Source: Gluconobacter cerinus (GTDB lineage Bacteria > Pseudomonadota > Alphaproteobacteria > Acetobacterales > Acetobacteraceae). Taken from it: DNA of 47,623 nucleotides. Where the stretch lies: the NCBI RefSeq assembly GCF_002723935.1, contig NZ_BEWM01000009.1, positions 1 to 47,623 of the forward strand, in the 5' to 3' direction. Each line of letters begins with the position of its first letter. The stretch's first letter is position 1. Positions 2,570 to 20,638 of the stretch are shown here, in pieces. The notes under the pieces were generated by a model. That model was not told where the DNA came from. It saw only the letters and a list, made by a program, of their open reading frames with translations, and ran no database searches. Position numbers and translations under genes: made by a program.

Positions 2570-2617
2570 GAGGGACAATCCCCTCTGCCGATGACTCTGA
2601 CCGCGCGATCTGCGACT
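2570..2617 (-). promoter_or_regulatory. Leader of icmD: AGTCGCAGAT motif and small hairpin
   Basis: On the minus strand the motif AGTCGCAGAT occupies 2617-2608 and reads toward icmD. It is followed by a hairpin with arms GAGGG/CCCTC at 2585-2570. The ribosome site GGAG (2564-2561) is outside the stem, so sequestration is not evident here. Confidence 0.55.
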
Positions 2618-2654
2618 GAGGCGGGAGAGGGGTATTTTTTTTCGTCAGTCCGTT

Positions 2655-3188
2655 TCAGGGCCAGAAAGAGAGGATCCAGGTGGCGTCCTTGACCGGATTG
2701 AGGAGCATGACGCCAAAGACGTACTGAATGCCGCAACCAAGGCGCTCGCGGTTCGATCGGCCTTTCTGGATGGCAAACCAGGTCAGGACGGCGAAAAAGC
2801 ACGTCCAGGCCCCGAACATCTGAAAGAACAGGGCAAAGTCTTTGACGATCGCCATGATCGCGTCTTTGGGGCCGGTGCCGGTAATCAGACTGTCGGCCGT
2901 GCTGTAACTGGTGGCAGCGTCGCCCAGAGTGACCTGCACGTCCGTTCCGGCCGAGGCGGTGCTTTTGGTGAGGATGACGTTGAACGAGGCGAAGACACCG
3001 CACAGGACGAGGGACAGATAGGGCAGCCAGGGCTTGTCCTGCAGGGCCTGAATGGTCGGGTGGTAATACTGGTAGATCCCGATCAGGCTGAAGATCAGGC
3101 AGGACACGGCCGCCGCATAGCAGGCCGTTGGCAGGAGCCAGCCCATGCCAACGGCGATTTCGTGGACGAGATTGACAAGGCCTTCCAT
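2655..3188 (-). CDS. icmC: IcmC/DotE/TraQ-like polytopic membrane protein
   Basis: 177 residues with about four hydrophobic segments: near residues 15-40 (MGWLLPTACYAAAVSCLIF), 52-72 (WLPYLSLVLCGVFASFNVIL), 110-140 (around FALFFQMFGAWTCFFAVLT) and the C-terminus (YVFGVMLLNPVKDATWILSF). IcmC/DotE is a four-helix inner-membrane protein of about 190 residues, and R64 TraQ is of similar size. The gene lies 10 bp after icmG and about 100 bp before icmD. Assignment is by topology, length and synteny. Confidence 0.75.
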   Translation of the reverse strand: MEGLVNLVHEIAVGMGWLLPTACYAAAVSCLIFSLIGIYQYYHPTIQALQDKPWLPYLSLVLCGVFASFNVILTKSTASAGTDVQVTLGDAATSYSTADSLITGTGPKDAIMAIVKDFALFFQMFGAWTCFFAVLTWFAIQKGRSNRERLGCGIQYVFGVMLLNPVKDATWILSFWP

Positions 3189-3198
3189 GCTGGCCTCC

Positions 3199-4392
3199 TC
3201 AGTTCAGGTCGCCATGAGCCGTGTGCAGAACCCAGGTGGCGCCCTGCTGGCTAATGGTCAGGACCGCGCCGTAGCCCGGGATGACCGTGCCAACACCCAC
3301 CTCGAACTGGCGGGCCTGCCCGCTTGGGGCCGCACTGTCCTCAATCATGGCGAGTTGCGGCGAGGCCGCGACGATCCGGTAGTGATGGACCCACTCAGGC
3401 TTTGGAGCCGGACCCGCCACGGCGGCCGGAGCGGGTGGGGCGGCTGAAGATGTTGCGGCCACTGTCGCAGGCTTGTTCATGGCAGCGCTCAGGGCCGCAC
3501 GTGCCTTTTCGGCGGCGGCATGGGCCTGGGCGGCTTCATCGGCACCGGAGTTCTCGGCACCTGTCACGGCGTGATTGGCTTCGACCAGAGAGACGCGCCG
3601 CGTCAGATCGTTCAGCCGGTCTTCTTCGGCCTTGCGCTGTCCGGCAAGGGACTGGCGCAGCTCTTCGACTTCGCCGCGCTCGCGTTCAATCACGCGGGCC
3701 TCAGCCGTGACGAGCTGAAGCACGTCGATCTGCTGCTGCGTCGCCATGGGCGCGGCCTGAAGGGTCTGGGCTGTCTTGACCGGATCGGCAGGCGGTGCGG
3801 GCGGCACAACGGCCGGAGCCTCAGTTCGGGGGGCGTCAGGCTGGGCTGACGCAGACTGCGATGCGGCTGACGGCGTTGCAACGACGGCCGCAGGCGGCGC
3901 TTTCGGGGACGTCGCAGTGTCGGGCGGGCTCGCAGCAGCTTTCGGATGGCCGAGGGTCTGCATTTCTGCAAGATCGGCGGTTGCAGGAGGGGCCGCTACC
4001 GGAGCGGGTTCGGGGGCCTGAGCCACGGGCGCTGCCGACTGATCCATGCCGACTTCCTGGCCAGGCGCGGAGACAGCGCGATGGTGGTGCCCACTTGTCG
4101 CCAGAATCCCCACGAGGAGAACGGCGCAGATCCCGAGGCCCGAACCGCCGTAGAGTTTCTGGCGGGGTGTCAGTGCCTCGTAGCGCGAGATGATGGGCGT
4201 GAGAAAAGAAGCAGAGCCGGACGATGCAGGGGCCGTCGTGTGATTGTCATCATGGCCCGTGGCTTCGGGGGTGTCCCCGTCCGGACCGTCAGACACCGTG
4301 TCGTGCTGGTGAGGCGGTGGGGGCGCTGCCGGGACGGGATCCATCCGGCGTGGCGTGACTTCGGTGTTCAGGTGGTGAACTGTGGAACTCAT
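3199..4392 (-). CDS. icmG: IcmG/DotF/TraP-like inner-membrane protein
   Basis: 397 residues. The first 75 are a polar cytoplasmic tail. One membrane helix follows (GLGICAVLLVGILATSG, about residues 83-99), then a Pro/Ala-rich periplasmic linker, a coiled coil (about residues 228-285, around VIERERGEVEELRQSLAGQR) and a C-terminal globular domain starting near HHYRIVAASPQLAMIEDS. This architecture is that of IcmG/DotF, which connects the inner-membrane and core parts of the Dot/Icm channel. The linker is longer than in Legionella (269 residues) but resembles plasmid TraP. A 12-bp hairpin with a T6 tract directly abuts the start codon and contains the ribosome site. Confidence 0.8.
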   Translation of the reverse strand: MSSTVHHLNTEVTPRRMDPVPAAPPPPHQHDTVSDGPDGDTPEATGHDDNHTTAPASSGSASFLTPIISRYEALTPRQKLYGGSGLGICAVLLVGILATSGHHHRAVSAPGQEVGMDQSAAPVAQAPEPAPVAAPPATADLAEMQTLGHPKAAASPPDTATSPKAPPAAVVATPSAASQSASAQPDAPRTEAPAVVPPAPPADPVKTAQTLQAAPMATQQQIDVLQLVTAEARVIERERGEVEELRQSLAGQRKAEEDRLNDLTRRVSLVEANHAVTGAENSGADEAAQAHAAAEKARAALSAAMNKPATVAATSSAAPPAPAAVAGPAPKPEWVHHYRIVAASPQLAMIEDSAAPSGQARQFEVGVGTVIPGYGAVLTISQQGATWVLHTAHGDLN

Positions 4393-4447
4393 AAAAAAGA
4401 TCCTTCTGGCTGAGACTGCCAGAAGGATCGGGGAACGATCTGCGACT
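4393..4447 (-). promoter_or_regulatory. Leader of icmG: AGTCGCAGAT motif and SD-containing terminator-like hairpin
   Basis: Minus strand. AGTCGCAGAT spans 4447-4438. A perfect 12-bp stem (GATCCTTCTGGC and GCCAGAAGGATC, 7-nt loop) spans 4429-4399, then comes a TTTTTT tract (4398-4393), then the ATG at 4392. The only plausible Shine-Dalgarno, AGAAGGA, is inside the 3' arm. The element looks like an intrinsic terminator or attenuator that also occludes ribosome binding. Confidence 0.7.
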
Positions 4448-4459
4448 GAGTGCGAAAAA

Positions 4460-5746
4460 TCAGGGCTTGTCGAGAACAGGATCCATGAACATCACACCCA
4501 CGTTCACGTTGGCGGCGAGGATGATCCGCGCGCGTGTTGGCGTGTCCTGTGTCAGGGCACTGTTGACGGCCGAGGCGGCACTTCCTGCGGCGACACCGAG
4601 CTGCTGACCCATGTTCAGGCGCTGGATATAGTTCATGCCGCCCAGGGCGCTGTAGCTGCCTTGGACATTGGACGTGGTTTCGATGGCCTGCCCAAGGCCC
4701 TGCACGAAGGCTGCGGCGGCAGGCATGACAAACCGCTGGAAAATCAGGGGATCAACGCTGGAGGCGACACCCTGCTTCATGGTGTCGGGCGCCATCACCA
4801 CGCCGTTGGTTGCGAGAGTGCGGCCCTGATGAATGATCTTGTTGACCTGCACGACCAGGAGCTGCTCGTTTCCGGGTGCCCGCGCAACCGTTGCAATCAT
4901 GCGGTCGCCCGCAATCGGGCCGCTATCGGCTTCCAGCACGATCTGCCCTGACAGGTCGCTGTCGGTCGCTGTGACGGTATGGGCATAAATCCCTCGACCG
5001 GCCGGAATGAGCGCTGGCGCGGCGGCTGTATCATGTGAGGCCGTGGCCGCTGCGGAGGCTCCTGCCGCACCACGCGAGGCCATGGCTTTCTCGGCCTGGG
5101 GCTGCGCCTCCTGCTCTGGCTTGAAGACGGCTTCCTGAAGATCCGAGACAGGCGGCCGGGTCTGAAGGCCGCTTTCGATGCGCGCGATCTCTGCGACATA
5201 GCGGGCACGGCGCTTCTCGCGCTCCTGCTGCTCGGCCTGAGACGTCTCACCATTCCCGGATGCGGAATAGGCGGGATCGGTCTGGACCAGCGGGGCTTCC
5301 GGCGCGTTTTCGATGTGTGGAGGCCTCGGTGGTGGAGCTGGCGACGGTATCGGAGCGCTGTAGCCGACTTCCTGGGGGTGAGGCGCTTCGGCTTCATGCG
5401 GAAGAACCGCATCCGTCCGCTCGCCCTTGGTGTTGCGTGTTACTGCGGGAGCGAGATCCGGGGTGTAGGATTTCCCGTCCCCCTCGGATTGCTGTGCGGC
5501 CTCAGTGTTTTGCATCTGGCGCAGGCGATCCTGCTCAGGGTTGGTATTGGTCCCACCGGGCAGAGCGTTCATCTCCACGATCTGCCCTGGATTGGATTTG
5601 GGCATCTGCTTGGTCTCATGATGTGAGACGAGAAGCACCAGAGCGATCACGGAGACGGCCGAGGCACCGAGCAGAATCAGGCGGCGGTTTCCTCCGCGTG
5701 TTGCGCTCGACAGAACGGATTTGAATTTGGGAAGCTTCGGGATCAT
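4460..5746 (-). CDS. icmE: IcmE/DotG/TraO-like, VirB10-type core protein
   Basis: 428 residues. A short cytoplasmic N-terminus and one membrane helix (RLILLGASAVSVIALVLLV, about residues 22-40) precede a Pro-rich periplasmic region and a C-terminal VirB10/TrbI-like domain starting near AGRGIYAHTVTATDSDLSGQ and including IVLEADSGPIAGDRM. IcmE/DotG forms the central channel. Legionella DotG is about 1048 residues because of a long repeat region; this one is plasmid-sized like R64 TraO (about 430). Its ATG overlaps the icmK stop by 4 bp (ATGA), giving translational coupling. Confidence 0.88.
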   Translation of the reverse strand: MIPKLPKFKSVLSSATRGGNRRLILLGASAVSVIALVLLVSHHETKQMPKSNPGQIVEMNALPGGTNTNPEQDRLRQMQNTEAAQQSEGDGKSYTPDLAPAVTRNTKGERTDAVLPHEAEAPHPQEVGYSAPIPSPAPPPRPPHIENAPEAPLVQTDPAYSASGNGETSQAEQQEREKRRARYVAEIARIESGLQTRPPVSDLQEAVFKPEQEAQPQAEKAMASRGAAGASAAATASHDTAAAPALIPAGRGIYAHTVTATDSDLSGQIVLEADSGPIAGDRMIATVARAPGNEQLLVVQVNKIIHQGRTLATNGVVMAPDTMKQGVASSVDPLIFQRFVMPAAAAFVQGLGQAIETTSNVQGSYSALGGMNYIQRLNMGQQLGVAAGSAASAVNSALTQDTPTRARIILAANVNVGVMFMDPVLDKP

Positions 5747-6720
5747 GGCGTCATGTCCTTGAGAGACGCGGACACGGTCCGACCGGAATCCGACAGGAGA
5801 ATGTAGGGGGTCTGGCGGAAGGCATAGAGGGTGTAGCCGTCTTCGCCACGCTCTGAGCTGTCCCAGGCAGGCGTCATGAGCGCCAGCCGCGTGCGGATGT
5901 AGAGTTCATTGCCCATGCGCCACGCCCGCACATCATCAGGAGAAAGACCCTCGACGCTCTGGGGAACGGCGGAGGCCGGAGCGATCCCGGACAGCATGGC
6001 ATTCATGAACGGCTCTGCCGTCCCGGGGGCGGCTTCCGGACCCATTTCCTGCTTTGCATTGGGGCCGTCTTCGTTCACGCGGACCGTCAGGTTGTCATCA
6101 TAGGTGCCGCGCCCTGCCAGAAGCAGGAAAGAGATCGGCTTGATTGCGCCCTTCAACGTGACGAGCAGGCCGCCACGCGGTGACAGCGACAGTGGCTCGA
6201 TGTTGATGGTGTTGCTGCCAGCATAGGGAACACAGGTGTAAAAGCCTGTGGTCTGCACGGCAGGCGATCCCCCTTTGCCACCGTCCGAGGAACAGTTCTT
6301 CAGACCGTCAGGATTGGCGGATGTGCTGGTCGTGTTCCAGGCAATCGGCCAGGGTGCGCCCGAGCGGTCCACAAAAGAGACGGCTGTGGGATAGCCCTTG
6401 GTCGTAAAAATCAGGGATGTCTGCTGACCGGGCGCGAAAGAGACGCGGATGGCCGGTCGGCTGGTCGGTGCGGCGACTTCCGTAGCAACATCTTCACGCG
6501 CCTTCTGGTTCTCTTTGAGGCGATTGCCGAGACGGCGGATCATCTCCGGTGTCAGGGGAATGGCTTCGTCCTCGGCAGCCTGCTGGTCCTGCTGCTCTGG
6601 AGAGAGGTGTGGCGCGGCTGGCGCGGCATCTGGAGCAGGTGCAACCGACTGTGCCATCGCGGTGAAGGGCAGGAGGCCCATGAGGCCGAGAAGGGCCAGC
6701 GAAAAAGAGCGGGTTTTCAT
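5743..6720 (-). CDS. icmK: IcmK/DotH/TraN-like outer-membrane core protein
   Basis: 325 residues from ATG 6720. I chose this start because it opens with a clear signal peptide (MKTRSFSLALLGLMGLLPFT followed by AMAQS); the longer reading frame upstream lies inside icmL. After a Pro/Gln-rich linker comes a beta-rich domain (around IRVSFAPGQQTSLIFTTKG and ISFLLLAGRGTYDDNLTV) typical of IcmK/DotH, the secretin-like outer-membrane component of the Dot/Icm core. DotH is about 360 residues. It lies 11 bp after icmL and overlaps icmE by 4 bp. Confidence 0.87.
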   Translation of the reverse strand: MKTRSFSLALLGLMGLLPFTAMAQSVAPAPDAAPAAPHLSPEQQDQQAAEDEAIPLTPEMIRRLGNRLKENQKAREDVATEVAAPTSRPAIRVSFAPGQQTSLIFTTKGYPTAVSFVDRSGAPWPIAWNTTSTSANPDGLKNCSSDGGKGGSPAVQTTGFYTCVPYAGSNTINIEPLSLSPRGGLLVTLKGAIKPISFLLLAGRGTYDDNLTVRVNEDGPNAKQEMGPEAAPGTAEPFMNAMLSGIAPASAVPQSVEGLSPDDVRAWRMGNELYIRTRLALMTPAWDSSERGEDGYTLYAFRQTPYILLSDSGRTVSASLKDMTP

Positions 6721-6731
6721 GGCGCGGATCC

Positions 6732-7361
6732 TCACTGCGGGCTGGCCACAAGCTGGGTGATGGCAATGCCGTCGGGGTGATCCTGATCTTCGACCCTTTC
6801 CACATGCACGGTTGCAATCAGGGTCTGCGAACTCTCCTGATTGACGTTCTCGCAGGTCTGAACGAACGGAAACTGCACGACATAATGGTGATGGCCGTTG
6901 ACCATGCTCTGCTGGCGAATGGTTGCGGCGCGCGTTGGCTGTGCATAGCAGAGCAGTTTGGCTTCTTTCATTTTCGCCAGATTGCCGTCCTGAACGAAGG
7001 ACTGCGCGAACGTATTCCAGCCATTGATGGTGAAATGCGAGCCTGCTGCGTTGAGCTGCGACGGATAATCCCGGTAATTGATGTTGTACGGCTTGAGCGA
7101 CCACTTGATGACCCAGGACAGGAAATCCTCCTGACTGAGGATCGGGCTGTTCAGCGCGATAGCCGGGCGAGGAGCGTTGATCCCGTCCACGAAGAAATAC
7201 TTCGGGTGCGGATGGTACGACCAGGCGCGGGCCAGGAGCACGGCCAGCACCACCACGACGGCGGCGAGGGCAATGGACGTCTGCAAGGAACGCTCAACGA
7301 TCTTACCCTGAAAATCAGGATCGGTCAGGCGTCGGCTCAGGGATCCCGAGGAGCGGCTCAT
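6732..7361 (-). CDS. icmL: IcmL/DotI/TraM-like inner-membrane protein
   Basis: 209 residues (IcmL is 212). One membrane helix near residues 27-46 (SIALAAVVVVLAVLLARAW) precedes a periplasmic NTF2-like domain with the family-typical stretch around INGWNTFAQSFVQDGNL and a central Gln/Ser-rich part. IcmL/DotI is a VirB8-like component of the inner-membrane complex. GGAG lies 10 nt upstream of the ATG. It is the first structural gene of the icmLKEGCDJB run and may be coupled to a 19-codon leader frame that overlaps its start. Confidence 0.88.
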   Translation of the reverse strand: MSRSSGSLSRRLTDPDFQGKIVERSLQTSIALAAVVVVLAVLLARAWSYHPHPKYFFVDGINAPRPAIALNSPILSQEDFLSWVIKWSLKPYNINYRDYPSQLNAAGSHFTINGWNTFAQSFVQDGNLAKMKEAKLLCYAQPTRAATIRQQSMVNGHHHYVVQFPFVQTCENVNQESSQTLIATVHVERVEDQDHPDGIAITQLVASPQ

Positions 7362-7417
7362 GGCGCGGTGTCTCCGTGGAACGACAGCGGGGCTGCGGAT
7401 GGCATTTCAAACCTCAT
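7358..7417 (-). CDS. Possible 19-codon leader peptide overlapping icmL
   Basis: A small frame from ATG 7417 encodes MRFEMPSAAPLSFHGDTAP and ends in TGA sharing ATGA with the icmL start. No good Shine-Dalgarno precedes it, and its ATG directly follows a GATGAC/GTCATC hairpin. It may be chance, or a coupling leader. Confidence 0.25.
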   Translation of the reverse strand: MRFEMPSAAPLSFHGDTAP

Positions 7418-7459
7418 GATGACTGTGTCATCGTCACCGTGACCCGTTGATCTGCGACT
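7418..7459 (-). promoter_or_regulatory. Leader of icmL operon: AGTCGCAGAT motif with hairpins
   Basis: Minus strand. AGTCGCAGAT spans 7459-7450. A 5-bp palindrome (GTCAC/GTGAC, 7443-7433) and a perfect GATGAC-ACA-GTCATC hairpin (7432-7418) follow. This is the 5' end of the icm transcription unit, so the promoter probably lies between here and the stop of the HTH gene at 7489. Confidence 0.55.
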
Positions 7460-7488
7460 GAAGCTGAAAAAACAGAGAAATTTGCGGA

Positions 7489-8535
7489 TTAATCGCCAGA
7501 GCGCATGACGGCGGTCTGTTGGTGCAAACGGCTGATCCGGCGGCCGTTACGGCGGGTGGTCCAGAAGTAGAACCCGGCCTTGCCGAGGCATTCGCGGCGC
7601 ACGTAATCCATCTTGTTCAGATAGACTTCATACAGGGCCGGTTCGAACGCCTTGCGCATGTCTTTCTTGGAACGGCGAGGCAGGTGCAGCCAGCCGGACT
7701 GACTGACGATAGTGCGATCCGTCAGGAGGAAGTCCTCTGCCACGGCATCAGGGGACTGGTGTGCAAAATGTCGCATGGCGAGCTCGTGCTGCATTTCTAC
7801 GGACCAGCGTGTGGTGCAGGCGTTCCGGCTGAAGCCGATGACCAACCCGGAGGGTGAGTTTCGGACCTGCCATCTGCGGCCCCGACGCTCTTCCGGTGTC
7901 AGGCGGGACGCCTGTTCCCAGGTGAGAATGACGGATGGATCAGCGGGAATAGCAGTGGAGTCAGGGGTAGGGCGGAGACTAACGAGCTTACGCTGGAGAC
8001 TACGGACACTGCGGCCCATCTGTTTCGCAATGCGTTGGAGCCCGATGCGCCGCTCACGGTGGGCCAGAAGAGTGGCAACGTCGGCGTCCGTCCAGACCAC
8101 CTCGGCATAACGCTCCCGGGCAGGCAGGCCGAGGGCGGCGCGTTTCTTGCGCACGGCCATGACGGTGCGATCGAGGCGCTTTGCGATAGTGGGAAGGTCT
8201 TCGCCCTCGGCCCATGCGCGGCTGAGGCGGCTGATATCGAGGAGAGACCATGCCCGAGGGCCATTCCTGAGCGGAGTGCGCTTGAGAACAAGTCCTTCCT
8301 CTCGCGCAATGGCCTCTATTTCGAGACGGCTTATGAAAAGTGCAGCCGCGATGTACGCGACGTTCACACCCTGAACGATCATCTTTTTTAAGAGGGAACG
8401 TGCTTGTTCAGGAGCTCCGAACGGCGAGAGACCAGACGACCGAAAAGCATCTTCGTTTTTACTGTGAAGCTGCATCCCTGAAGCCAGATTGGCCTGGGTA
8501 GACAGGGCAAACGACGGTTGAAGAGCAGCAAGCAT
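7489..8535 (-). CDS. DNA-binding protein with repeated HTH segments (unknown family)
   Basis: 348 residues. The middle has at least two helix-turn-helix or Myb-like units: around ISRLSRAWAEGEDLPTIAKR (followed by LDRTVMAVRKKRAALGL) and around IGLQRIAKQMGRSVRSLQRK. The C-terminal third is basic and aromatic. No signal peptide or membrane segment. It sits between the icm operon and a tandem-HTH regulator and is a good candidate for a plasmid regulator. No Shine-Dalgarno is visible before ATG 8535; initiation at internal Met21 or a leaderless transcript is possible. I do not recognise the family. Confidence 0.7.
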   Translation of the reverse strand: MLAALQPSFALSTQANLASGMQLHSKNEDAFRSSGLSPFGAPEQARSLLKKMIVQGVNVAYIAAALFISRLEIEAIAREEGLVLKRTPLRNGPRAWSLLDISRLSRAWAEGEDLPTIAKRLDRTVMAVRKKRAALGLPARERYAEVVWTDADVATLLAHRERRIGLQRIAKQMGRSVRSLQRKLVSLRPTPDSTAIPADPSVILTWEQASRLTPEERRGRRWQVRNSPSGLVIGFSRNACTTRWSVEMQHELAMRHFAHQSPDAVAEDFLLTDRTIVSQSGWLHLPRRSKKDMRKAFEPALYEVYLNKMDYVRRECLGKAGFYFWTTRRNGRRISRLHQQTAVMRSGD

Positions 8536-8630
8536 CGCTAGAAATACCGTTATTGTTGCAGACGGTATCCTTATCTAGCGACGATAGCTTATATGCAAGA
8601 AAAAACTTCCTTAAACGATAAGATTATCGT
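8536..8630. promoter_or_regulatory. Operator-like palindromes between two regulator genes
   Basis: An AT-rich interval upstream of the HTH gene and just past the stop of the XRE gene. It contains an imperfect nested inverted repeat (CGCTAGA 8536-8542 with TCTAGCG 8574-8580; ATACCGT 8544-8550 with ACGGTAT 8562-8568) and a perfect 16-bp palindrome, ACGATAAGATTATCGT, at 8615-8630. Another partial copy, GACGATA, lies near 8580. These look like repressor sites. Confidence 0.5.
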
Positions 8631-8634
8631 CTAG

Positions 8635-9408
8635 TCAGTTTATTATATCTTTCGTGACGCGTTGAAGAACGTCCAGTTTATCGAACAATATCCTTGCCTG
8701 TTCGGATGTGGAGAGGATTCCGCTGTAGAGGCCCCGAACACGAAAGAGAGCAAAAAAAGTGGCGTCTACCCTTGGAAAGCCTGCGAATAGCAAGGCTGTC
8801 GGAACACGTAGGGCCGCTGCAATCTTCAAGAGGGTGTCGAGATTGGGGTTTCGCATTCCTATCTCGATAAGGTGGATTGCTGGCGCGTGAAGGCCGCTGG
8901 CGGCAGCCAGATCGGCACCGCTCAGCCCTCTGGCCAGACGAATGTCGCGTATTCGTTCGCCGAGTTCTACGAGAACTGGCTGTCTCTTGTCGGGCGGAAC
9001 CTTTTTGCCCTCGTTAAGAGTGTGGTCTGTCTTAATCCTCTCCACTTCCGAAAGGATTTCCAGCAATGATTCCCTGTTCTTTTCGAATATCTTACTGAGC
9101 GAAAGGCATATCTGTAGTTCGTCGTCAGACGCCTGACCTTCCAAAGGTAATATTTCGTGCCTATCGGGAGGTAATATGTTGTCAGGAACTTCTTCAAGAC
9201 CCTGAATAAGCTTCCATAGAGAGTTGTAGGCAGGCGCCTTACCTTTCTCCATGTTCTGAACTGTATTCACAGATAGTCCACTCATAAAGCAGACCCGAAC
9301 AACATTTAGTTCCCGTTTCTCCCGAACCTCGCGTACTCTATCGCCTAACTCAGTCAGATATCCTTCAACAGAAGCATCATTTGCCTGCGTCTCTGTTTTC
9401 TTGTTCAT
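8635..9408 (-). CDS. Tandem XRE-type HTH transcriptional regulator
   Basis: 257 residues with two Cro/C1-type HTH domains. The first is at about residues 17-75 (LGDRVREVREKRELNVVRVC, SGLSVNTVQNMEKGKAPAYN), the second at about 150-205 (LGERIRDIRLARGLSGADLA, SGLHAPAIHLIEIGMRNPNL). They are separated by an acidic/helical linker, and a hydrophobic C-terminal tail follows. Such duplicated-HTH proteins usually repress or control lysogeny-like or transfer regulons. The gene is at the divergence point between the minus-strand icm operon and plus-strand transfer genes, so it is a prime candidate controller of both. It is AT-richer than its neighbours. Confidence 0.8.
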   Translation of the reverse strand: MNKKTETQANDASVEGYLTELGDRVREVREKRELNVVRVCFMSGLSVNTVQNMEKGKAPAYNSLWKLIQGLEEVPDNILPPDRHEILPLEGQASDDELQICLSLSKIFEKNRESLLEILSEVERIKTDHTLNEGKKVPPDKRQPVLVELGERIRDIRLARGLSGADLAAASGLHAPAIHLIEIGMRNPNLDTLLKIAAALRVPTALLFAGFPRVDATFFALFRVRGLYSGILSTSEQARILFDKLDVLQRVTKDIIN

Positions 9409-9439
9409 GGCTAGTTCTCTTTCTCGGCAGGCTTACGCA

Positions 9440-9540
9440 CCGGACTTCGGGTCCGGATACTGCAAAATACCCACGAGAGCGCCCCTGACAACTGAGTTCG
9501 TATTTAACATTTCTCCTCAGTCGCATGTTGATCTGCGATT
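9440..9540 (+). promoter_or_regulatory. Leader of the TcpQ-like gene: hairpin and paired AGTCGCA / TGCGATT motif
   Basis: A CCGGAC-TTCGG-GTCCGG hairpin lies at 9440-9456 with no following T tract. AGTCGCAT (9519-9526) and ATCTGCGATT (9531-9540) form an inverted pair of the plasmid-wide motif, 45 and 31 nt before the gene start. Candidate control region. Confidence 0.45.
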
Positions 9541-9571
9541 TAGAATTTTAAGTTATTTCAGGAGAAACCGA

Positions 9572-9988
9572 ATGTTTGTAATCTTGCCTCCCGCCCATGT
9601 GCAACCAGCTCCAACGACGCCTAAGTCTTTGCTGACGGAAGCGGCTTTTGAGATCAGTCATGCGCCTCCACCTCTTCCCTCGCCTGTCCCCACGGGGCCA
9701 GTCTCGCTGGCACCGTCCGCAGAGCTACCCGCTCCATCCGAACAGCCAAAGGTGGTTCATCACTTCCGCATGACCGCCGGATATGGGCATCAGGTGCCGT
9801 TGTCGTTCGCCGTCAGGCAGATCGTGCCATCCGGTGTCCGTGTCACTTACGGCGCAGGCGTTGATCCAGGTGAGGCCGTGGACTGGCAGGGCGGCCGGGA
9901 ATGGAACAAGGTTCTGGCCACCACAGTCGGTCCACTCGGCGAGCGTATCGAGGTCGGGCGTGCACACGTCACTATTTTGAAGAAATAA
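9572..9988 (+). CDS. TcpQ/PilL C-terminal domain-like periplasmic protein
   Basis: 138 residues from ATG 9572 (AGGAG 9 nt upstream). The upstream part of the open frame overlaps the divergent regulator and is discarded. The first 60 residues are Pro-rich. The C-terminal 75 (around VPLSFAVRQIVPSGVRVTYG, GAGVDPGEAVDWQGGREWNK and LGERIEVGRAHVTI) match the toxin-coregulated-pilus Q / PilL-type domain that accompanies secretins and transfer systems. No clear signal peptide is seen. It probably acts in the periplasm with the outer-membrane core. Family call is by pattern recognition. Confidence 0.6.
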   Translation: MFVILPPAHVQPAPTTPKSLLTEAAFEISHAPPPLPSPVPTGPVSLAPSAELPAPSEQPKVVHHFRMTAGYGHQVPLSFAVRQIVPSGVRVTYGAGVDPGEAVDWQGGREWNKVLATTVGPLGERIEVGRAHVTILKK

Positions 9989-9993
9989 GCGTT

Positions 9994-10039
9994 AGTCGCA
10001 GATCGAGCTGCTTCTCTGCTGGGACTTACCCAGGAGAGA
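9994..10039 (+). promoter_or_regulatory. Leader of 10043 operon: AGTCGCAGATC motif and SD-sequestering hairpin
   Basis: AGTCGCAGATC spans 9994-10004. A stem with 10 of 11 pairs (TCTCTGCTGGG 10013-10023, CCCAGGAGAGA 10029-10039, 5-nt loop) contains the AGGAG ribosome site of the gene starting at 10043. Confidence 0.65.
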
Positions 10040-10042
10040 GGC

Positions 10043-10429
10043 ATGTCACCAGACGATCAAACACCGCACAGGGAAACCCCCCCGAGTTCTCTGGCTCCCA
10101 ATCTCGCTCTCGCACGCCACAATCTGCTTGAGCATTTTCGTGTCCGGAATGGACACACGTTCGGCACCGACGGGGCGGTCGTCGCCTCTCTGGCCGACCT
10201 TCTTGCGTCCCTGCCCAATGAGGAGCGACGGACCCTTGTTGCCGAGGTGATCTCAACCGTGGCCGGTGGAGAGGATCTTGTGGCAGCCGCTGTTGCCAGC
10301 CGTACTGACCTTGTCACCTGGACCGACAGTCAGAAGCGGGCAGAACTCTCTGGCCGGGTTTTCTCAGAGGACCGTCTGGCGCTTTTGCGCGATCTTCTCG
10401 CTCCTGAAGAAGAAAGGGCGGTCGCATGA
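10043..10429 (+). CDS. Hypothetical soluble protein, first gene of the DotA-side transfer operon
   Basis: 128 residues, not recognised. No signal peptide and no membrane segment; predicted helical with an acidic C-terminus (LLRDLLAPEEERAVA). The ATG lies just after a hairpin carrying AGGAGAG. The stop overlaps the next gene by 4 bp (ATGA), so it is co-translated with the exported protein at 10426. Its place at the head of the dotA-containing operon suggests a role in transfer or its control; function unknown. Confidence 0.65.
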   Translation: MSPDDQTPHRETPPSSLAPNLALARHNLLEHFRVRNGHTFGTDGAVVASLADLLASLPNEERRTLVAEVISTVAGGEDLVAAAVASRTDLVTWTDSQKRAELSGRVFSEDRLALLRDLLAPEEERAVA

Positions 10430-10968
10430 AACGGGCACCCTTTCTATTTATCGCGGCTGCCTTGTCGCTTCCCGTAGGTGCCTCTGCCGCAACACAGGGC
10501 AGTCAGGCCTGCGCCACCCTGACACAGGCCGCAGCGGACGCCGTCAACGGGCGGATCAAGGCCAACAATGCCTACGAAAAGCAGCCTGAAAGCGTCAGTG
10601 GCCTGTCGTGTCTCGACAAATTCTTTAACGGGACCGGCCTCAATCTCCTGACAAACATCGCCAACCCTGCGGCACTGATCAACGATGTTGTCGGGCAGGT
10701 CGAAGGAGAGATCTGTTCTGCGGCCCAGAGTGAGTGGAACAACACCGTCGGGGCCGCGCAGCAGTGTGGCCTGAGTTTGAACGGTGTGAATGTCGGTCTT
10801 GGCCTGTCAGGCGGGAATGGCCTGATGTGCCCCTCTCTGAATTTTGGCGGCAATCGTCCCCAGCTCGCGGCCGGAAGTCTCGGGAATGGGGATTCCAATG
10901 GCTACGTGCGCGGTGAGCCACGCTTACCGACCGGGTACACAAGCACACCGTTGGATGGGGTATTCTGA
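10426..10968 (+). CDS. Secreted conjugation-associated protein, unknown
   Basis: 180 residues with a clear signal peptide (MKRAPFLFIAAALSLPVGAS followed by AA). The mature part has several cysteines (near SQACATL, GLSCLDK, EGEICSA, AAQQCGLSL, GLMCPSL) that could form disulfides, and a Gly/Asn-rich C-terminus. It overlaps the preceding gene (ATGA), and the next gene starts at its stop codon (TGATG). A DsbC/G-like protein encoded 6 kb downstream could act on it. Likely a periplasmic or surface component of the transfer apparatus; no family recognised. Confidence 0.65.
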   Translation: MKRAPFLFIAAALSLPVGASAATQGSQACATLTQAAADAVNGRIKANNAYEKQPESVSGLSCLDKFFNGTGLNLLTNIANPAALINDVVGQVEGEICSAAQSEWNNTVGAAQQCGLSLNGVNVGLGLSGGNGLMCPSLNFGGNRPQLAAGSLGNGDSNGYVRGEPRLPTGYTSTPLDGVF

Positions 10969-12161: not shown

Positions 12162-12162
12162 C

Positions 12163-13701: not shown

Positions 13702-13704
13702 CTG

Positions 13705-16047: not shown

Positions 16048-16058
16048 AGGTGAAGGCA

Positions 16059-16481
16059 ATGGCTGAAAGTGAGGGCATGGGAGCGTTAGCAGGCTATATG
16101 CTTGGTCGCGCTTCGGTACAGCAGGACCAGTTCATAGAGAGCTGGTCTTCCCGACTGCGCAGACGGTCCGGTCCAACTTTTGAGCAGCTTACTCACGAGC
16201 TGCTCGCCCAAAGAGATACCCTGAATAGCATGGTAGCTAATTTGCGCGAGAAGCTGGAGCACTCATCTCGAAGAGAAGGTGCTTTAGTTGCCGAGCTGTC
16301 ACAAGCGCGCTACGACTACGAGCGTCAGCAAGCGCTAACAAAGCAGTGGCAGGATTTTGGCGATAAGTCGGAGGCTAACTACGACGAGCTGAAGGCTTGG
16401 GCGGAAAAGGCCGAGGTTTCACTCAAACAGTATCGCGCCCTCTACGGCCCTCTTCCAGACGCTCCAAAAAGCAGCTCTTAG
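16059..16481 (+). CDS. Small coiled-coil protein, unknown
   Basis: 140 residues from ATG 16059, preceded by GAAGG; a TTG five codons earlier is possible but overlaps the dotA stop. Residues about 40-125 are a charged coiled coil (around LTHELLAQRDTLNSMVANLR and ARYDYERQQALTKQWQ). A short hydrophobic or Gly/Ala patch is at the N-terminus (GMGALAGYMLGRASV). It is probably the last gene of the operon begun at 10043. The sequence after it carries the next motif copy at its very stop codon. Function not recognised. Confidence 0.6.
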   Translation: MAESEGMGALAGYMLGRASVQQDQFIESWSSRLRRRSGPTFEQLTHELLAQRDTLNSMVANLREKLEHSSRREGALVAELSQARYDYERQQALTKQWQDFGDKSEANYDELKAWAEKAEVSLKQYRALYGPLPDAPKSSS

Positions 16482-16526
16482 TCGCATCTCACCCCGATAG
16501 GGTCTCCTTAATTCTTCAGGAGACCC
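16480..16526 (+). promoter_or_regulatory. Leader of the DsbC/G-like gene: AGTCGCATCTC motif and SD-sequestering hairpin
   Basis: The motif variant AGTCGCATCTC spans 16480-16490, overlapping the preceding stop codon. A perfect 9-bp stem (GGGTCTCCT 16500-16508, AGGAGACCC 16518-16526, 9-nt loop) holds the AGGAG site 4-8 nt before the ATG at 16530. Confidence 0.65.
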
Positions 16527-16529
16527 TTC

Positions 16530-17543
16530 ATGCGTTCTCGTACTTCTCTTTATCTCGCCGGATCGCTGTTCCTGGCAGCACCGGCAATGGCGCAGACCCA
16601 ATGCGCCGTTCCTTCCTCGCCTGCCCAAACATCAGCACCTCCAAAAACCGCTCCGCTCGGGCCTCAGCCGACTGACGCGATCCAGCGACTGGTACAGGCA
16701 GGCAGCGAGATTCTATGGGCAGAGCCGCAGCACGGACTACAGACAGGTGTTGCTCATGGCGATAACCAGCTTCTGGTATTCTTCACGCCTGAAAATCACA
16801 GCTTCATTATTGGCGGGACGCTCATTCCCGTTCCCTATGACCGCCTTCACGAGCTGATGGGCAAACGGGCGACGGATCTTGAGGTCTGGCGCGGAACCAA
16901 AGGCATGTTTGTGCGCAATGGCGACCGCTTCCAAGTAGTTTATGCGACGCCAGACGGTCAGGCCGCGATCGCCGGCACGGTGTGGGACACCGCAGGCAAA
17001 AACATCACAAGACAGCAGATCCGCTACATTCCAGGGGCCGTTCCCACGGTTCGGATCGACGTCCCGGGAGGCGGAAAGGCCTCGGCCGGGTCGTTGTCCG
17101 AGCAGATCTATGCTGGTGTGATCGGCCAGAAGGGCGCGCCGGAAGTGGTCATGTTCATTGATCCGCGCTGCACGTTCTCGATCCGGGCCATGCAGCTCCT
17201 TCAGCCCGCCGTTGATAGCGGCAAGCTGCGTCTAAGGGTCGTGCCGCTTTCGCTCCTGGATTATGAGGATGGAGGCGCAAGTACCCGTTACGCTAAGGCC
17301 ATGACCTCGCTGCCTGAGGATGCAAGTATGGTTCAGGCCTGGACGTCTGGAGGCCTTTCGACTGCTCTGGATCAGCCTTCTGCCGAAGCACAGTCACGAC
17401 TTAACGCGAACATGGCCGCCGCGAAGGCGGTATCGCTAACAGGCACTCCGACCTTCTTCTGGAAGCACCATGACGGATCTCTGGGACGTCTCGATGGCGT
17501 GCCGCCCGATCTGAACAAGTTCCTTGCGGACGTCAGCCAGTGA
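16530..17543 (+). CDS. DsbC/DsbG-like periplasmic thioredoxin-fold protein with CxxS active site
   Basis: 337 residues. Signal peptide MRSRTSLYLAGSLFLAAPAM followed by AQ. An N-terminal dimerisation-like domain is followed by a thioredoxin fold: MFIDPRCTFSIRAMQLLQP (near residue 210) and the cis-proline loop TGTPTFFW (near residue 305). DsbC/G proteins normally have CPYC or similar; here the site is CTFS, so the resolving cysteine is replaced by serine. A monothiol enzyme could isomerise disulfides or act as a chaperone but could not be a standard dithiol oxidase. IncI and F plasmids carry a comparable gene (trbB). The stop overlaps the next gene's GTG. Confidence 0.8.
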   Translation: MRSRTSLYLAGSLFLAAPAMAQTQCAVPSSPAQTSAPPKTAPLGPQPTDAIQRLVQAGSEILWAEPQHGLQTGVAHGDNQLLVFFTPENHSFIIGGTLIPVPYDRLHELMGKRATDLEVWRGTKGMFVRNGDRFQVVYATPDGQAAIAGTVWDTAGKNITRQQIRYIPGAVPTVRIDVPGGGKASAGSLSEQIYAGVIGQKGAPEVVMFIDPRCTFSIRAMQLLQPAVDSGKLRLRVVPLSLLDYEDGGASTRYAKAMTSLPEDASMVQAWTSGGLSTALDQPSAEAQSRLNANMAAAKAVSLTGTPTFFWKHHDGSLGRLDGVPPDLNKFLADVSQ

Positions 17544-18067
17544 GCGGGGCGAGCGAAAAGAAGGGAGTCCTGGCTAAAACAGGCCGGGCCGCCCGGTTTG
17601 TTGTGGGCTCTCCATCTGTCGCAGTCGGGGCCACGAGTATCCGTGACGGATACAGTCTGCTTCGGACGCTCTGGGGCATCGTCCGGAGAAAGCCTGAGGC
17701 GGAGGACGGGTTTCAGGTGGATGAGTCGGGTCGCATCGACCTGGTTGCGACGGCAGAAGTGTATGATGTCAGTCCGGCCGCAGTCGAGATCTATCTCCAG
17801 AATCAGCAGGCCAAGACGTATCAGCGCGCCTGGGCCGCCGCCCTCATCGGGGCTATTCTGCTCGCAGCTTGGATCATCGTAGGCCTCAGCGGCTTGTGGC
17901 ATAGCCAGACTCTCGTGACAGCGATCGAGATGATGCCGTTCTGGTTCGCTCTGGGGCTTTATATTCTGCAGAATGGCTGGCTGAACTGGCAATTTCGCCA
18001 GCGGCGAAAGGTCGGGATGTTGGCCTATATCAGAGAGGCCGACACCCTTTTCCCTCGACGTCCCTGA
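17540..18067 (+). CDS. IcmV/TraX-like inner-membrane protein (tentative)
   Basis: 175 residues from GTG 17540, overlapping the preceding stop (GTGA). A basic N-terminus is followed by a cytoplasmic domain and two adjacent membrane helices (WAAALIGAILLAAWIIVGLS and TAIEMMPFWFALGLYILQ), then a basic tail (WQFRQRRKVGMLAYIREAD). IcmV in Legionella is a 151-residue, two-helix protein next to dotA; topology, size and the C-terminal basic pattern agree. R64 traX is the positional counterpart. It ends at a likely terminator. Confidence 0.55.
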   Translation: MSGASEKKGVLAKTGRAARFVVGSPSVAVGATSIRDGYSLLRTLWGIVRRKPEAEDGFQVDESGRIDLVATAEVYDVSPAAVEIYLQNQQAKTYQRAWAAALIGAILLAAWIIVGLSGLWHSQTLVTAIEMMPFWFALGLYILQNGWLNWQFRQRRKVGMLAYIREADTLFPRRP

Positions 18068-18073
18068 AACAGG

Positions 18074-18102
18074 AAGCGGCCCAGACGGACCGCTTTTCTT
18101 TT
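18074..18102 (+). terminator. Rho-independent terminator after the IcmV-like gene
   Basis: Arms AAGCGG (18074-18079) and CCGCTT (18090-18095), extendable by CC/GG pairing in the loop, followed by TTCTTTT. It lies between two convergent genes and may work in both directions. Confidence 0.6.
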
Positions 18103-18400
18103 AGAAGGTTCCAGGGGGATGCGTGGAGTTATTGTTGGGGCCACCAACGGCCCAGCCCGCGTGCTCATAGTCTTCACGGTCCCCCGAGTTACGGGGATCT
18201 TCGATTTTTACGATGTGGCCCTGCCGGTCGTAGACAGGCGGTGCCCAGACGGCTCTTGACGACCCGTAGGCCGCGCCCGGCTCATAGCGAGCATGTTTGA
18301 GCGGAGGCGGCTTGGGGCCATGGCCGTGATCGGCCGTGACGTTGCCTGAGCAGGCGGTCAGGACAAGCAGTCCTGTAACCGATAAAAGACGCACAATCAT
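18101..18400 (-). CDS. Small lipoprotein, unknown
   Basis: 99 residues. The N-terminus MIVRLLSVTGLLVLTACSGN has a lipobox (LTAC) with the lipidated Cys at residue 17. The mature part is rich in Pro, Gly, His and Asn. Its role may be in mating-pair formation, entry exclusion or envelope adaptation; none can be proven. Convergent with the transfer operon. AGGAG 8 nt upstream of the ATG lies inside a perfect hairpin. Confidence 0.65.
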   Translation of the reverse strand: MIVRLLSVTGLLVLTACSGNVTADHGHGPKPPPLKHARYEPGAAYGSSRAVWAPPVYDRQGHIVKIEDPRNSGDREDYEHAGWAVGGPNNNSTHPPGTF

Positions 18401-18405
18401 ATCTA

Positions 18406-18450
18406 GATCTCCTGAATGGAGATCATAGAATTGCGCCGGCTTCTGCGACT
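18406..18450 (-). promoter_or_regulatory. Leader of the lipoprotein gene: AGTCGCAGAA motif and SD-sequestering hairpin
   Basis: Minus strand. AGTCGCAGAA spans 18450-18441. A perfect 7-bp stem, GATCTCC (18424-18418) and GGAGATC (18412-18406) with a 5-nt loop, contains the ribosome site; the ATG follows 5 nt later at 18400. Confidence 0.65.
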
Positions 18451-18468
18451 TAACGAAAAACCTTTCGC

Positions 18469-18795
18469 TTAGTCAGGCAGGGAACCAACGTCTTCCTCTT
18501 CGATGCACAAACCTGCTTCGAGAATAGCAAGACAGTTTAGGCACTCGCGTTTCAATTTTTCGCTCTCAGCATTCTCGAATGAAAGCGACGTAACTTGGAC
18601 TGAAAGTCTACGAGCATTGGAAAAGCATTGATAAATCTTCTGAATGTCAGAAGCCGCAATGGCGAAGGAGCAGGAGAGCTCTTTTGACTGTTCTTTGATC
18701 AGCATTAAGCAACTATGGAAGTCTTTCAGTATTTCTCGTGAGTTATAATCACGAAAACTTGTAGGAGTATTGGCTGAAGGAACTGTCGAACCCAT
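18469..18795 (-). CDS. Hypothetical small protein
   Basis: 108 residues, not recognised. Mostly helical and with several cysteines (SCLML, LSCSF, YQCFS, RECLNC, GLCIEE); acidic C-terminus. No membrane segment or signal peptide. AT-richer than the conjugation genes. AAGGTG precedes the ATG, and a degenerate motif copy (AGTCGCAAA) ends 8 nt before it, an unusually short spacing. Confidence 0.5.
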   Translation of the reverse strand: MGSTVPSANTPTSFRDYNSREILKDFHSCLMLIKEQSKELSCSFAIAASDIQKIYQCFSNARRLSVQVTSLSFENAESEKLKRECLNCLAILEAGLCIEEEDVGSLPD

Positions 18796-18803
18796 CTTGC
18801 ACC

Positions 18804-18812
18804 TTTGCGACT
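18804..18812 (-). promoter_or_regulatory. AGTCGCAAA motif copy before the 18795 gene
   Basis: Minus-strand AGTCGCAAA overlaps the AAGG ribosome site region of the hypothetical gene. Weakest match of the series, with no hairpin between it and the start. Confidence 0.35.
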
Positions 18813-19017
18813 ACAGAACGCTCCGAGAGATAGAGGCAAAACCGGCATACATTATCAAGTTTAACTTTGCCTTTATCTTATCTCTTGTTTGCTCGTAGCA
18901 CGGGCCTGCGCAAAGAAAAAAGGTTTCATTAACGAATTGTGAAAAAAAATTACTAAAGGCCGCTTTTGTTCTCATCGGCAGCTTGCGAGTGTGGAACGGA
19001 GTCATGTTACAGATGAA

Positions 19018-19362
19018 AGTCGCAGATCCCTGTGGCGATCTCTGAGCGGCCGAGAGACTCTGAAAAGGGCCTTTCTTTCTCGCTACAGGAGAAGCATAAA
19101 GGCAAATCGCCTATTTGGGCTTGAAGAAGGAATTGTTTGAGTGAGTTAGCCAGAGCCCAGATACGTTTAAGGCCCCGCTTTCACGAGGCCCTAGAACGTA
19201 GTCCCATCGGTCACCAAACCGATTGAACTGGATTGAAAATTTCAGTGCTGATTTTTCAATCCTACATTTCAGCTTCGAATGCAAGAGTTTCTTGCAAACG
19301 GGAGGGGCTTGTTTGAAGGGTTGGAGAGCAGGGCTTCGGAAATCCCGAAATCCTGAGAAGTT
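19018..19362 (+). promoter_or_regulatory. repC leader: AGTCGCAGATC motif and several inverted repeats (candidate copy-control region)
   Basis: AGTCGCAGATC at 19018-19028. Downstream are GAGAG-type stem-loops near 19040-19060, a GGCC...GGCC hairpin near 19170-19190, a perfect GGATTGAAAA/TTTTCAATCC inverted repeat (19230-19262) and a GCAAGA-GTT-TCTTGC hairpin (19281-19295), then repC at 19367. In repABC plasmids an antisense RNA upstream of repC controls copy number; this leader could hold its counterpart. An AGGAG near 19090 is followed by AUA rather than AUG. Confidence 0.45.
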
Positions 19363-19366
19363 TTCC

Positions 19367-20611
19367 ATGACCTATTCTCTTTCGCATGACCCCCGTCAGG
19401 CCGGGGTGAGACGCATTACCCCGGCCATGATCCTCGCGGAGATGCAGTGCGAAGCTCTCCCGCGAAGTGGTGCCAGCAAGGCGCAGATTCTCAGTGCGTT
19501 GCACACAGAGCCTCGTGCGCTTGGCCTTCAGCCGCGCCAGTCCGATCTGCTTGGCTTTCTAATCAGCCGCACGAAGCCGGTGGACTGGGAGGACGACAAC
19601 CTCACAATCTGCGCCGTGCGCAATCGTGACATCTGCGAGCGGTTCGGCATCGAGAGGTCCACGGTCAAACGCTGGTTACGCGGCCTCAGCGAGTTAGGCT
19701 GGATCATCATGCGCGATAGTCCGAATCAACAGCGCTGGTTGAGACGTGACGGCCGCAATGGGGCCATCCTTGAGGGATACGGGTTCGATCTGTCGCCGCT
19801 GTCTCGGCGCTACGACGAAATGCTCCAACGCGTTGAGGCCTTCAGAGAGCGGGAGCGCGAAGGAAAGCGCCTGCACAAGCGCGCCATGATCCTGAGCCGC
19901 CGCATCACGGCCCTTTCCGCCACGGCCCTTGAGACGGTCGGGGATAAGGCAGAGGTCATGAGCATCCAGCAGAACGGGCATCAGCTCCTGGCGCTGCGTG
20001 GCAATGACCACGATGTGGACATCCTGTCGCCATTGGTTGAGCAGATGGAGGGATTGGTCGAGCGTCTGGAGGCCCTGATCGCAGGCGTTGACCCTGTGGA
20101 AATGGACCCCATGGGGCGCACTGATGGACCCCATAATACTGATACAAACCCAAATACGATAACTAAAGTTACTGTAAGCGGAGCCGGCTGCGCCGGCGTT
20201 GGCATAGACGAAGGAGTAGTTGGGTCTGACAGTGCCTCCCCTGCCAAGGCCTCGCCGCTTCGGGGCTTCAAGGCCGGACCGAACTTCCTCCTTCAGCTCG
20301 TCCCGGATCTGCGCGATCTCTGCACCAGCAGCCGTCCCCATGAGGCCGAACTGATCGAGGCCGTGGAGATGCTCACTGGCTCTCTGGGGATTTCGTCTCA
20401 TGCCTGGCGTCAGGCTTGCAGTGTGATGGGCCGATATGAGGCGGCTGTCGCGGTGTGCGTCATTTCCGCCAAGGCGCGAAAGGGCAAGGTCAGGTCGGCC
20501 GGTGGGCTGCTACGGGCCATGATCGAGCGCCACCTCGACGGTACGTTGGCTCTGGACCGGACCCTCTATGGCCTGGCGTCAGATCTTTCGGCCGACCGCA
20601 CCTACCATTGA
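19367..20611 (+). CDS. repC: RepC-family plasmid replication initiator
   Basis: 414 residues from ATG 19367 (GAGAAG 6 nt upstream, first start with the family-typical length). The N-terminal winged-helix part contains ICAVRNRDICERFGIERSTV and KRWLRGLSELGWIIMRDSPN (family-typical pattern of strand-recognition helices), followed by GYGFDLSPLSRR. A helical middle, a variable linker (about residues 250-300) and a conserved C-terminal domain (GISSHAWRQACSVMGRYEAA, VRSAGGLLRAMIERH) follow. RepC is the initiator of alphaproteobacterial repABC plasmids. Here repA and repB are not adjacent; the only partition genes in view are of another type at 46.4-47.4 kb. Confidence 0.87.
   Translation: MTYSLSHDPRQAGVRRITPAMILAEMQCEALPRSGASKAQILSALHTEPRALGLQPRQSDLLGFLISRTKPVDWEDDNLTICAVRNRDICERFGIERSTVKRWLRGLSELGWIIMRDSPNQQRWLRRDGRNGAILEGYGFDLSPLSRRYDEMLQRVEAFREREREGKRLHKRAMILSRRITALSATALETVGDKAEVMSIQQNGHQLLALRGNDHDVDILSPLVEQMEGLVERLEALIAGVDPVEMDPMGRTDGPHNTDTNPNTITKVTVSGAGCAGVGIDEGVVGSDSASPAKASPLRGFKAGPNFLLQLVPDLRDLCTSSRPHEAELIEAVEMLTGSLGISSHAWRQACSVMGRYEAAVAVCVISAKARKGKVRSAGGLLRAMIERHLDGTLALDRTLYGLASDLSADRTYH
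20126..20197. other. Putative origin of replication inside repC
   Basis: An AT-rich stretch (about 20130-20176) in an otherwise GC-rich gene is followed by a perfect GCCGGC-TGC-GCCGGC hairpin (20183-20197). In RepC replicons the origin is known to lie in an AT-rich segment within repC; this position fits that rule. Confidence 0.5.
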
Positions 20612-20617
20612 GGTGTC

Positions 20618-20638
20618 AGTCGCAGATGGGATCTGCAG
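20618..20638 (+). promoter_or_regulatory. Leader of the GapR-like gene: AGTCGCAGATG motif
   Basis: AGTCGCAGATG at 20618-20628. The motif itself forms a small hairpin, GCAGAT-GGG-ATCTGC (20622-20636). The ribosome site AAAGGAG is outside it; the gene starts at 20664. Confidence 0.5.

Follow-up and report, generated by a model that had tools for sequence, protein, structure and literature searches.

A repeated box upstream of a −10 element as the probable promoter signal of a Gluconobacter conjugative plasmid and its relatives

Why does one short, oriented DNA word stand ahead of so many backbone genes of a conjugative plasmid? The question arose from a 47,623-nt plasmid of Gluconobacter cerinus (contig C9; the whole stretch, termed the window here), which encodes RepC and a GapR-like protein and whose near relatives are typed MPF_I (dot/icm-like). 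A sequence-only reading had placed a directional motif in the leaders of backbone genes and attributed it to one undescribed regulator or to an RNA-level mechanism. Of these two, the regulator was retained: with a probability of about 0.7, the motif represents the upstream part of a sigma70 promoter that depends on an activator; a plasmid-encoded protein would read the motif, and at many sites the promoter would be combined with a lock on translation.

A directional motif and a −10 element at fixed spacing

The exact 11-mer AGTCGCAGATC was located at 2607–2617, 4437–4447 and 7449–7459 on the minus strand and at 9994–10004 and 19018–19028 on the plus strand. Copies with one mismatch were present at 20618 (+) and 9530–9540 (−) and copies with two mismatches at 16480 (+) and 18440–18450 (−), while direct reading of 9519 (+) and 18812 (−) showed AGTCGCA only. 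The positions given earlier for the minus strand were one base short. Scanning of the full plasmid, as had been suggested, was weak for the loose version of the motif, because its 27 matches with up to two mismatches in the whole window (17.2 ± 4.3 expected) were reached by 2 of 100 shuffles. Exact words in backbone leaders, in contrast, were informative: AGTCGCAG/GTCGCAGA was the top 8-mer in 21 such leaders (6/21), no antisense copy was found, and none of 300 dinucleotide shuffles gave as high a count. The exact 11-mer occurred 14 times in the 3.58-Mb genome, its reversed-pattern control not once. A scan against Rfam yielded no match above threshold. The claimed directional motif is thus real, and it is conserved. 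Related Gluconobacter plasmids kept the sites at the same genes, and the core was preserved in 12 of 12 Gluconobacter loci with located leaders, window included, at each of icmL, the DsbC/G-like gene (dsb) and the genes starting at 9572 (u) and 10043 (h2).

To compare sites across plasmids, we anchored an alignment on TCGC (p0 = T). It comprised 75 sites from 12 plasmids, taken only from leaders with a motif match and including related plasmids as well as five extra A. tropicalis plasmid stretches. Position +17 was A in 67 and position +21 was T in 64 of the 75 sites. In the sigma70 −10 element, the key bases are an A and, four positions on, a T; the columns correspond to such an element (nAnnnT) at a constant gap of 11 bp from the motif. 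An A/T-rich stretch (0.69–0.81) was observed at −14 to −11 relative to p0. No conserved hexamer that might serve as a −35 element appeared at p−7 to p−2 of this alignment, and a consensus −35/−10 scan gave 3 sites (5.1 expected), none of them at a motif leader. In a thinned set (50 sites, nine plasmids, motif end 30–66 nt before the start), both −10 bases were found in 41 sites, compared with 8 for the next best pair of offsets and a mean of 2.8. By plasmid, both bases were present in 6/8 sites of the window, 1/1 of L012, 5/9 of Kozakia, 1/2 of K. xylinus, 6/8 of A. tropicalis, 8/8 of Lichenicola, 5/5 of Methylocapsa, 4/4 of Beijerinckia and 5/5 of Roseomonas.

Exact words were also counted by context, whereby sites less than 40 nt from a locus start or less than 30 nt from its end were dropped and identical contexts were merged. 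Of 88 contexts of exact Gluconobacter 11-mers, 23 possessed the A + T pair, and all of these preceded genes or open frames (icmL, icmD, icmG, dotD, a ParA-like gene of other contigs and one open frame). A further 19 contexts, from h2 and repC leaders, retained the T only, and none of the remaining 46 had both bases. For plasmid pGOX1 of G. oxydans 621H (all 14 matches) together with a relative (3 further distinct contexts from a fetched stretch), the pair was found in 15 of 17 cases, with hexamers including CATACT, TATTTT and TATTAT; the two sites without it lay antisense in dotA. On the pGOX1 record, 13 of the 14 GCACTCACA matches are followed by a CAnnnT box.

A search of bacterial genomes for IcmL provided 66 loci, in which motif and spacing were left free (automatically called leaders, any 6-mer, spacing 11 to 23, 60 shuffles per locus). 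The test covered 64 loci, the other two having fewer than five leaders. Fourteen loci scored above all 60 shuffles, and every one of them returned one and the same element with identical spacing: 18 positions ahead of the A for GTCGCA, TTCGCA and TTCGCG, and 19 for GTTCGC. A rule combining box, A17, T21, ribosome site and open frame identified 304 sites in the 66 loci and 16 in the reversed sequences. The repeated motif with its −10 element is, on this sequence evidence, very likely a promoter element.

Since the −10 element follows at a fixed distance downstream, the motif should sit upstream of the transcription start, which is predicted to lie downstream of it. If +21 is equated with −7, the core TCGCA would occupy −28 to −24, the A/T tract would fall at −42 to −39, where an UP element would be expected, and transcription would start at p28. 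The motif would then span about −32 to −20, in the place of the −35 element. Within the window, GTCGCA occurs 35 times, and nine copies conform to the −10 rule, six in leaders and three within genes. The gene-associated sites are as follows.

2594..2619 (−): putative promoter of the icmD-like gene (start 2551); motif 2607–2619, −10 CAGAGT 2594–2599, predicted start 2587
4399..4449 (−): putative promoter of the icmG-like gene (start 4392); motif 4437–4449, −10 GATCCT 4424–4429, predicted start 4417
7436..7461 (−): putative promoter of the icmL block, before a 15-residue leader open reading frame (start 7405); motif 7449–7461, −10 CACGGT 7436–7441, predicted start 7429
9517..9542 (+): partial site before the 9572 gene (u); motif TCAGTCGCATGTT 9517–9529, GATTTA at the −10 position, A kept, T not
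9992..10038 (+): partial site before the 10043 gene (h2); motif 9992–10004, TTCTCT at the −10 position, T kept, A not
16478..16526 (+): putative promoter of the DsbC/G-like gene (start 16530); motif 16478–16490, −10 TAGGGT 16498–16503, predicted start 16510, inverted repeat 16500–16526
18406..18452 (−): putative promoter of the lipoprotein gene (start 18400); motif 18440–18452, −10 AATTCT 18427–18432, predicted start 18420, inverted repeat about 18406–18424
19016..19041 (+): partial site ahead of repC (start 19367); exact copy of the motif, conserved in relatives, CGATCT at the −10 position, T kept, A not
20616..20641 (+): putative promoter of the GapR-like gene (start 20664); motif 20616–20628, −10 CAGAAT 20636–20641, predicted start 20648

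The sites reported earlier thus fell into three groups: full promoters by the −10 rule (icmD, icmG, icmL leader, dsb, lipoprotein, gapR), partial ones (9519, 9994, 19018) and three that lie outside the rule (18812, 9540 and the supposed degenerate copy at 34109). A link from transfer to nucleoid genes was supported, and perhaps that to replication, which had also been asserted.

The predicted starts precede the start codons by 16–25 nt for seven window genes, by 36 nt for icmD and by 319 nt for repC. In a pGOX1 gene (L119), the predicted start coincided with the A of its ATG. The VirB9-like gene in the 4398 region (−) of L116 (pGOX1) and in L119 is annotated from a GTG inside a longer frame whose ATG lies at the predicted start; a leaderless lipoprotein transcript is therefore predicted. 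Contigs C18, C19 and C16 of the window's own genome (L069, L070, L071) bear the same promoter (motif plus CATCAT as −10) before a GTG-started gene (L069:438–1280) that appeared ParA-like by eye and has related copies in other Gluconobacter genomes. The leader frame ahead of icmL (MPSAAPLSFHGDTAP, 7358–7405, −) overlaps the icmL start through ATGA, and its start region was kept in the 12 located Gluconobacter loci.

Lineage-specific words and a candidate reader

Distant plasmids lacked the 11-mer and showed another directional word at the same leaders: GGTCGCATCAT in Kozakia and Acetobacter, CCGTTCGC in Lichenicola and Roseomonas, ATTCGCGC in Methylocapsa and GCACTCACA in pGOX1. The de novo word test was significant in six of eight plasmids. 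TCGC was common to all words except that of pGOX1 (the GCACTCACA type, as distinct from the GTCGCAGATC type); aligned by −10 distance, GCACTCACA and TCAGTCGCA agreed at 6 of 9 positions on direct reading. A single reader per plasmid would be expected to keep the word uniform within a locus. Indeed, 6-mers were identical in 0.69 of within-locus pairs, compared with 0.29 after shuffling of labels (maximum 0.36 in 1000; 164 sites in 28 loci chosen from the 66). G. thailandicus HD924 has two plasmids (L009 and L117) that between them carry both motif types. A host factor of single specificity therefore cannot read both, and the reader is very probably encoded by the plasmid itself. For the same reason, base-pairing between the motif and the 16S rRNA 3′ end, judged by eye only, was rejected.

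Two regulators of the window had been put forward earlier as candidates.

7489..8535 (−): GcrA-related multi-helix-turn-helix (multi-HTH) protein, 348 aa, adjoining icmL upstream; proposed activator
8635..9408 (−): XRE-type regulator with two HTH_3 stretches; second candidate

The former came out as the best candidate. Among 63 loci with sufficient sequence, 61 had a multi-HTH gene immediately upstream of icmL; the two exceptions (L192 and L196) hold such a gene elsewhere in the locus. Compared with solved structures, the family profile matched GcrA (7ye1, E = 1.4e-8; 5yiu, E = 5.7e-7), whereby the 7ye1 alignment was limited to residues 2–83 of the 173-residue chain, the DNA-binding end, and a C-terminal sigma-binding domain was not recognised. 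The Pfam GcrA family (PF07750) was matched by 13 of 27 family members at E ≤ 0.01, and of seven proteins scanned singly, four gave values of 6e-6 to 6e-5, one of them above the curated cut-off. A predicted model of the multi-HTH protein (mean predicted local distance difference test 86, predicted template modelling score 0.55) displayed four three-helix units at about 42–80, 98–135, 150–187 and 246–282; a fold search with this model as a whole returned no hit at E ≤ 0.001. Comparison of recognition-helix residues with motif class by eye gave nothing clear. On direct reading, the GANTC methylation site was absent from the motif consensus, and we therefore filed the protein as GcrA-related rather than as GcrA. 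According to PMC7403470, GcrA is a cofactor of sigma70 that contacts both DNA and sigma2 and aids open-complex formation. Such help would suit a promoter that has no −35 element. Taken together, the GcrA-like protein is more likely than not the reader.

As to the control of the multi-HTH gene itself, a conventional TTGACA/TATAAT promoter was unconvincing (best scores 7–9 of 12 in 11 leaders). Its leader was not always free of the core, as GTCGCAT precedes the A. tropicalis HTH0 gene.

The same promoter element could instead be read by the XRE-type protein, with the GcrA-like protein acting elsewhere. The XRE-type gene was present in 62 of 63 loci, adjoining the HTH gene, and its product is likewise strongly divergent. 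The XRE profile, however, is a general one, so that matches need not be orthologues, and pGOX1 combines this promoter type with the GcrA-like gene GOX_RS00540, yet no XRE gene is annotated beside it. When five records were searched directly for the XRE protein of the window, the outcome was uninformative, since the XRE protein of Lichenicola was missed as well. We regard this assignment as unlikely, though it is the strongest competitor. Upstream of the XRE gene, direct reading showed a 25-residue leader open reading frame (9433–9510, −) with a good ribosome site.

A predicted lock on translation and the weighing of mechanisms

Many sites featured an inverted repeat with its 5′ arm between the −10 element and the predicted start and its 3′ arm containing the Shine-Dalgarno sequence (e.g., 4399–4429 and 16500–16526). 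In the icmG leader, the repeat 4399–4429 spans the ribosome-binding site and places its loop at the predicted start; in the h2 leader, a repeat at about 10014–10038 covers the ribosome-binding site. Folding relative to each leader's own shuffles was strongest in motif leaders, with a mean z of −2.46 (n = 52); the value was −0.22 for the remaining backbone leaders (n = 133; p = 3e-9 for the difference) and −0.55 for accessory ones (n = 43; p = 1.5e-5). Most of the leaders of dotA, lipoprotein, dsb and icmG genes folded strongly. We then compared RNA reading through from upstream with RNA beginning at the predicted start. Openness of the ribosome site rose from 0.33 to 0.52 in motif leaders (n = 50) and from 0.42 to 0.47 in controls (n = 128); in 27 loci chosen from the 66, the corresponding values were 0.34 to 0.47 (n = 159) and 0.40 to 0.44 (n = 257; p = 4.6e-12). 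The gain in accessibility was thus 0.18 vs 0.06 in the thinned set and 0.135 vs 0.036 in the genome loci. Partners pairing with the ribosome site lay at p8–27 in 1056 of 1815 pairs (control 740 of 2624), and shuffling of p8–27 raised read-through openness to 0.41 in the genome loci. As the stem sequences vary from gene to gene, the stems do not represent one operator. A lock on read-through RNA is, judging from these folding models, probably a selected feature.

We infer the transcription start, the dependence on an activator, its identity and the effect on translation, and the proposed sequence of events reads as follows. The box core (GTCGCA here) would stand 11 bp before a degenerate −10 (nAnnnT), with an A/T tract just upstream and no recognisable −35. 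A plasmid-encoded protein, most likely the GcrA-related multi-HTH protein (7489–8535), would bind the box and help the host sigma70 RNA polymerase to initiate, so that the transfer blocks and gapR (perhaps also repC) would fire together. RNA reading through from an upstream gene would fold over the ribosome-binding site and be translated poorly. Promoter-started RNA would escape this lock because the 5′ arm is absent, leaving the ribosome-binding site free. RNA would thus supply a second layer, namely a hairpin that only read-through RNA is predicted to form.

Several results weigh against this reading. Three of the nine gene-associated window sites (u, h2 and repC) each lack one −10 base and fit the promoter model only partly. 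In the free test, 50 of 64 loci were individually non-significant; automatic starts in the Gluconobacter loci may fall upstream of the sites. The de novo word test was non-significant for K. xylinus (L114) and Beijerinckia (L112), the latter being the only one with antisense copies. As to the reader, the XRE-type gene is as widespread as the HTH gene, and the window's own HTH protein gave no match to Pfam GcrA. No GcrA-like gene was found in the record of Roseomonas plasmid CP099477 (L113), despite its uniform CGTTCGCACC promoters with a −10 in 5/5 sites; the GcrA-like half may reside on another plasmid of the strain. (The transfer region of CP099477 is broken up by other genes.) As to the lock, Shine-Dalgarno pairing was scarcely higher in motif leaders than in the other two groups (0.66 vs 0.59 and 0.60), and folding was weak at gapR of the window and at the icmD and u leaders.

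Our initial reading had been an RNA-level regulon: the motif would be part of the transcript, and a protein or small RNA binding it there would open the ribosome-site hairpin. Strict orientation, the frequent position of sites just past a stop codon and the hairpins over the start in many leaders are in line with it. It was abandoned for the motif itself because the −10 columns emerged: an A..T pair fixed at +17/+21 has the pattern of a −10. The ATG of the pGOX1 gene exactly at the predicted start and the location of most ribosome-site partners upstream of predicted starts also argue against it, and we consider it very improbable. A trans-acting small RNA found no candidate either: the only near anti-motif copy noticed in the window was the partner at 9530–9540, where a local hairpin is possible, no systematic search for small RNAs having been made. 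Equally improbable is a plasmid-encoded alternative sigma factor reading both boxes directly. Two boxes at fixed spacing would suit such a factor, and the Sigma70_r4_2 model was weakly matched by 9 of 27 HTH proteins; yet the −10 retains the sigma70 A..T pattern, no model of sigma region 2 was found among the HTH protein families, and the 11-bp gap is far below the 16–18 bp usual in promoters of the sigma70 family. Processive antitermination by a NusG paralogue (RfaH/ActX type) at an ops-like site, suggested by a directional leader element and one terminator-like hairpin (4399–4429), has next to no chance, as the single NusG-domain gene of the genome lies on contig C6 and not on plasmid contig C9, and other genera do not conserve the T run.

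Beyond the window, the activator-dependent promoter leads to a broader proposal, for which we see about even odds: alphaproteobacterial conjugative plasmids with type IVB secretion-like systems would each use a private code, in which a multi-HTH sigma70 activator derived from GcrA is matched to a box standing in for the −35 at the transfer blocks. Activator and box would drift together, and at many of these sites the lock would silence read-through. Co-resident plasmids would then not activate each other's transfer genes, and plasmids would thereby have an equivalent of middle-gene takeover by phages. It would also account for inner starts in long, tightly packed transfer operons in which read-through stays silent. 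The analysis yields a rule by which the transfer regulon can be located in a plasmid family that is large and little studied, and it singles out one candidate master activator. The pairs of activator and site (GTCGCA, TTCGCA, TTCGCG, TTTGCA, GCACTCACA type) form a natural series in which co-evolution of sigma70 cofactor and box could be studied. Single steps have known parallels; the combination, the private codes and the spread over the plasmid family appear new. Our literature search, which was short on subscription papers, found no publication describing a motif of this kind or a GcrA-like regulator for these plasmids. A study of G. oxydans 621H reported 2449 transcription starts, and its main text does not mention pGOX1 (PMC5756330; reads under PRJEB18739).

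Other cargo of the window includes a cassette at 34275–40324 (−) of a T5orf172/MUG113-type protein, a DEAD-type helicase and an MmeI-type restriction-modification enzyme, and a DNA polymerase III alpha gene of the error-prone type at 40597–43737 (−). An annotated error-prone polymerase is also present on pGOX1 and L117.

Relation to known systems

The IncI and IncM transfer systems share the type of transfer apparatus (MPF_I typing), and we know of no multi-site promoter motif of this kind shared by their regulators. GcrA-dependent promoters of Caulobacter are similar in that the candidate reader is related to the DNA-binding domain of GcrA. They differ in that the plasmid motif has no GANTC, the match is confined to the DNA-binding end and four HTH units are predicted.

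At T4 middle promoters, a MotA box centred near −30 replaces the −35 and precedes a sigma70 −10 by 12 ± 1 bp, according to PMC2988021. The plasmid element likewise has a box in the place of the −35 at a fixed distance from the −10, here 11 bp. Its letters differ, however, its −10 is weak rather than strong, and the box varies by lineage. No homologue of MotA or AsiA was seen, none having been searched for. For T4 gene e, PMC3014915 describes a hairpin in read-through RNA that hides the ribosome-binding site and whose 5′ arm is missing from locally started RNA. The plasmid lock would follow the same logic; in contrast to gene e, it is a prediction, and it would extend to many genes of a plasmid family.

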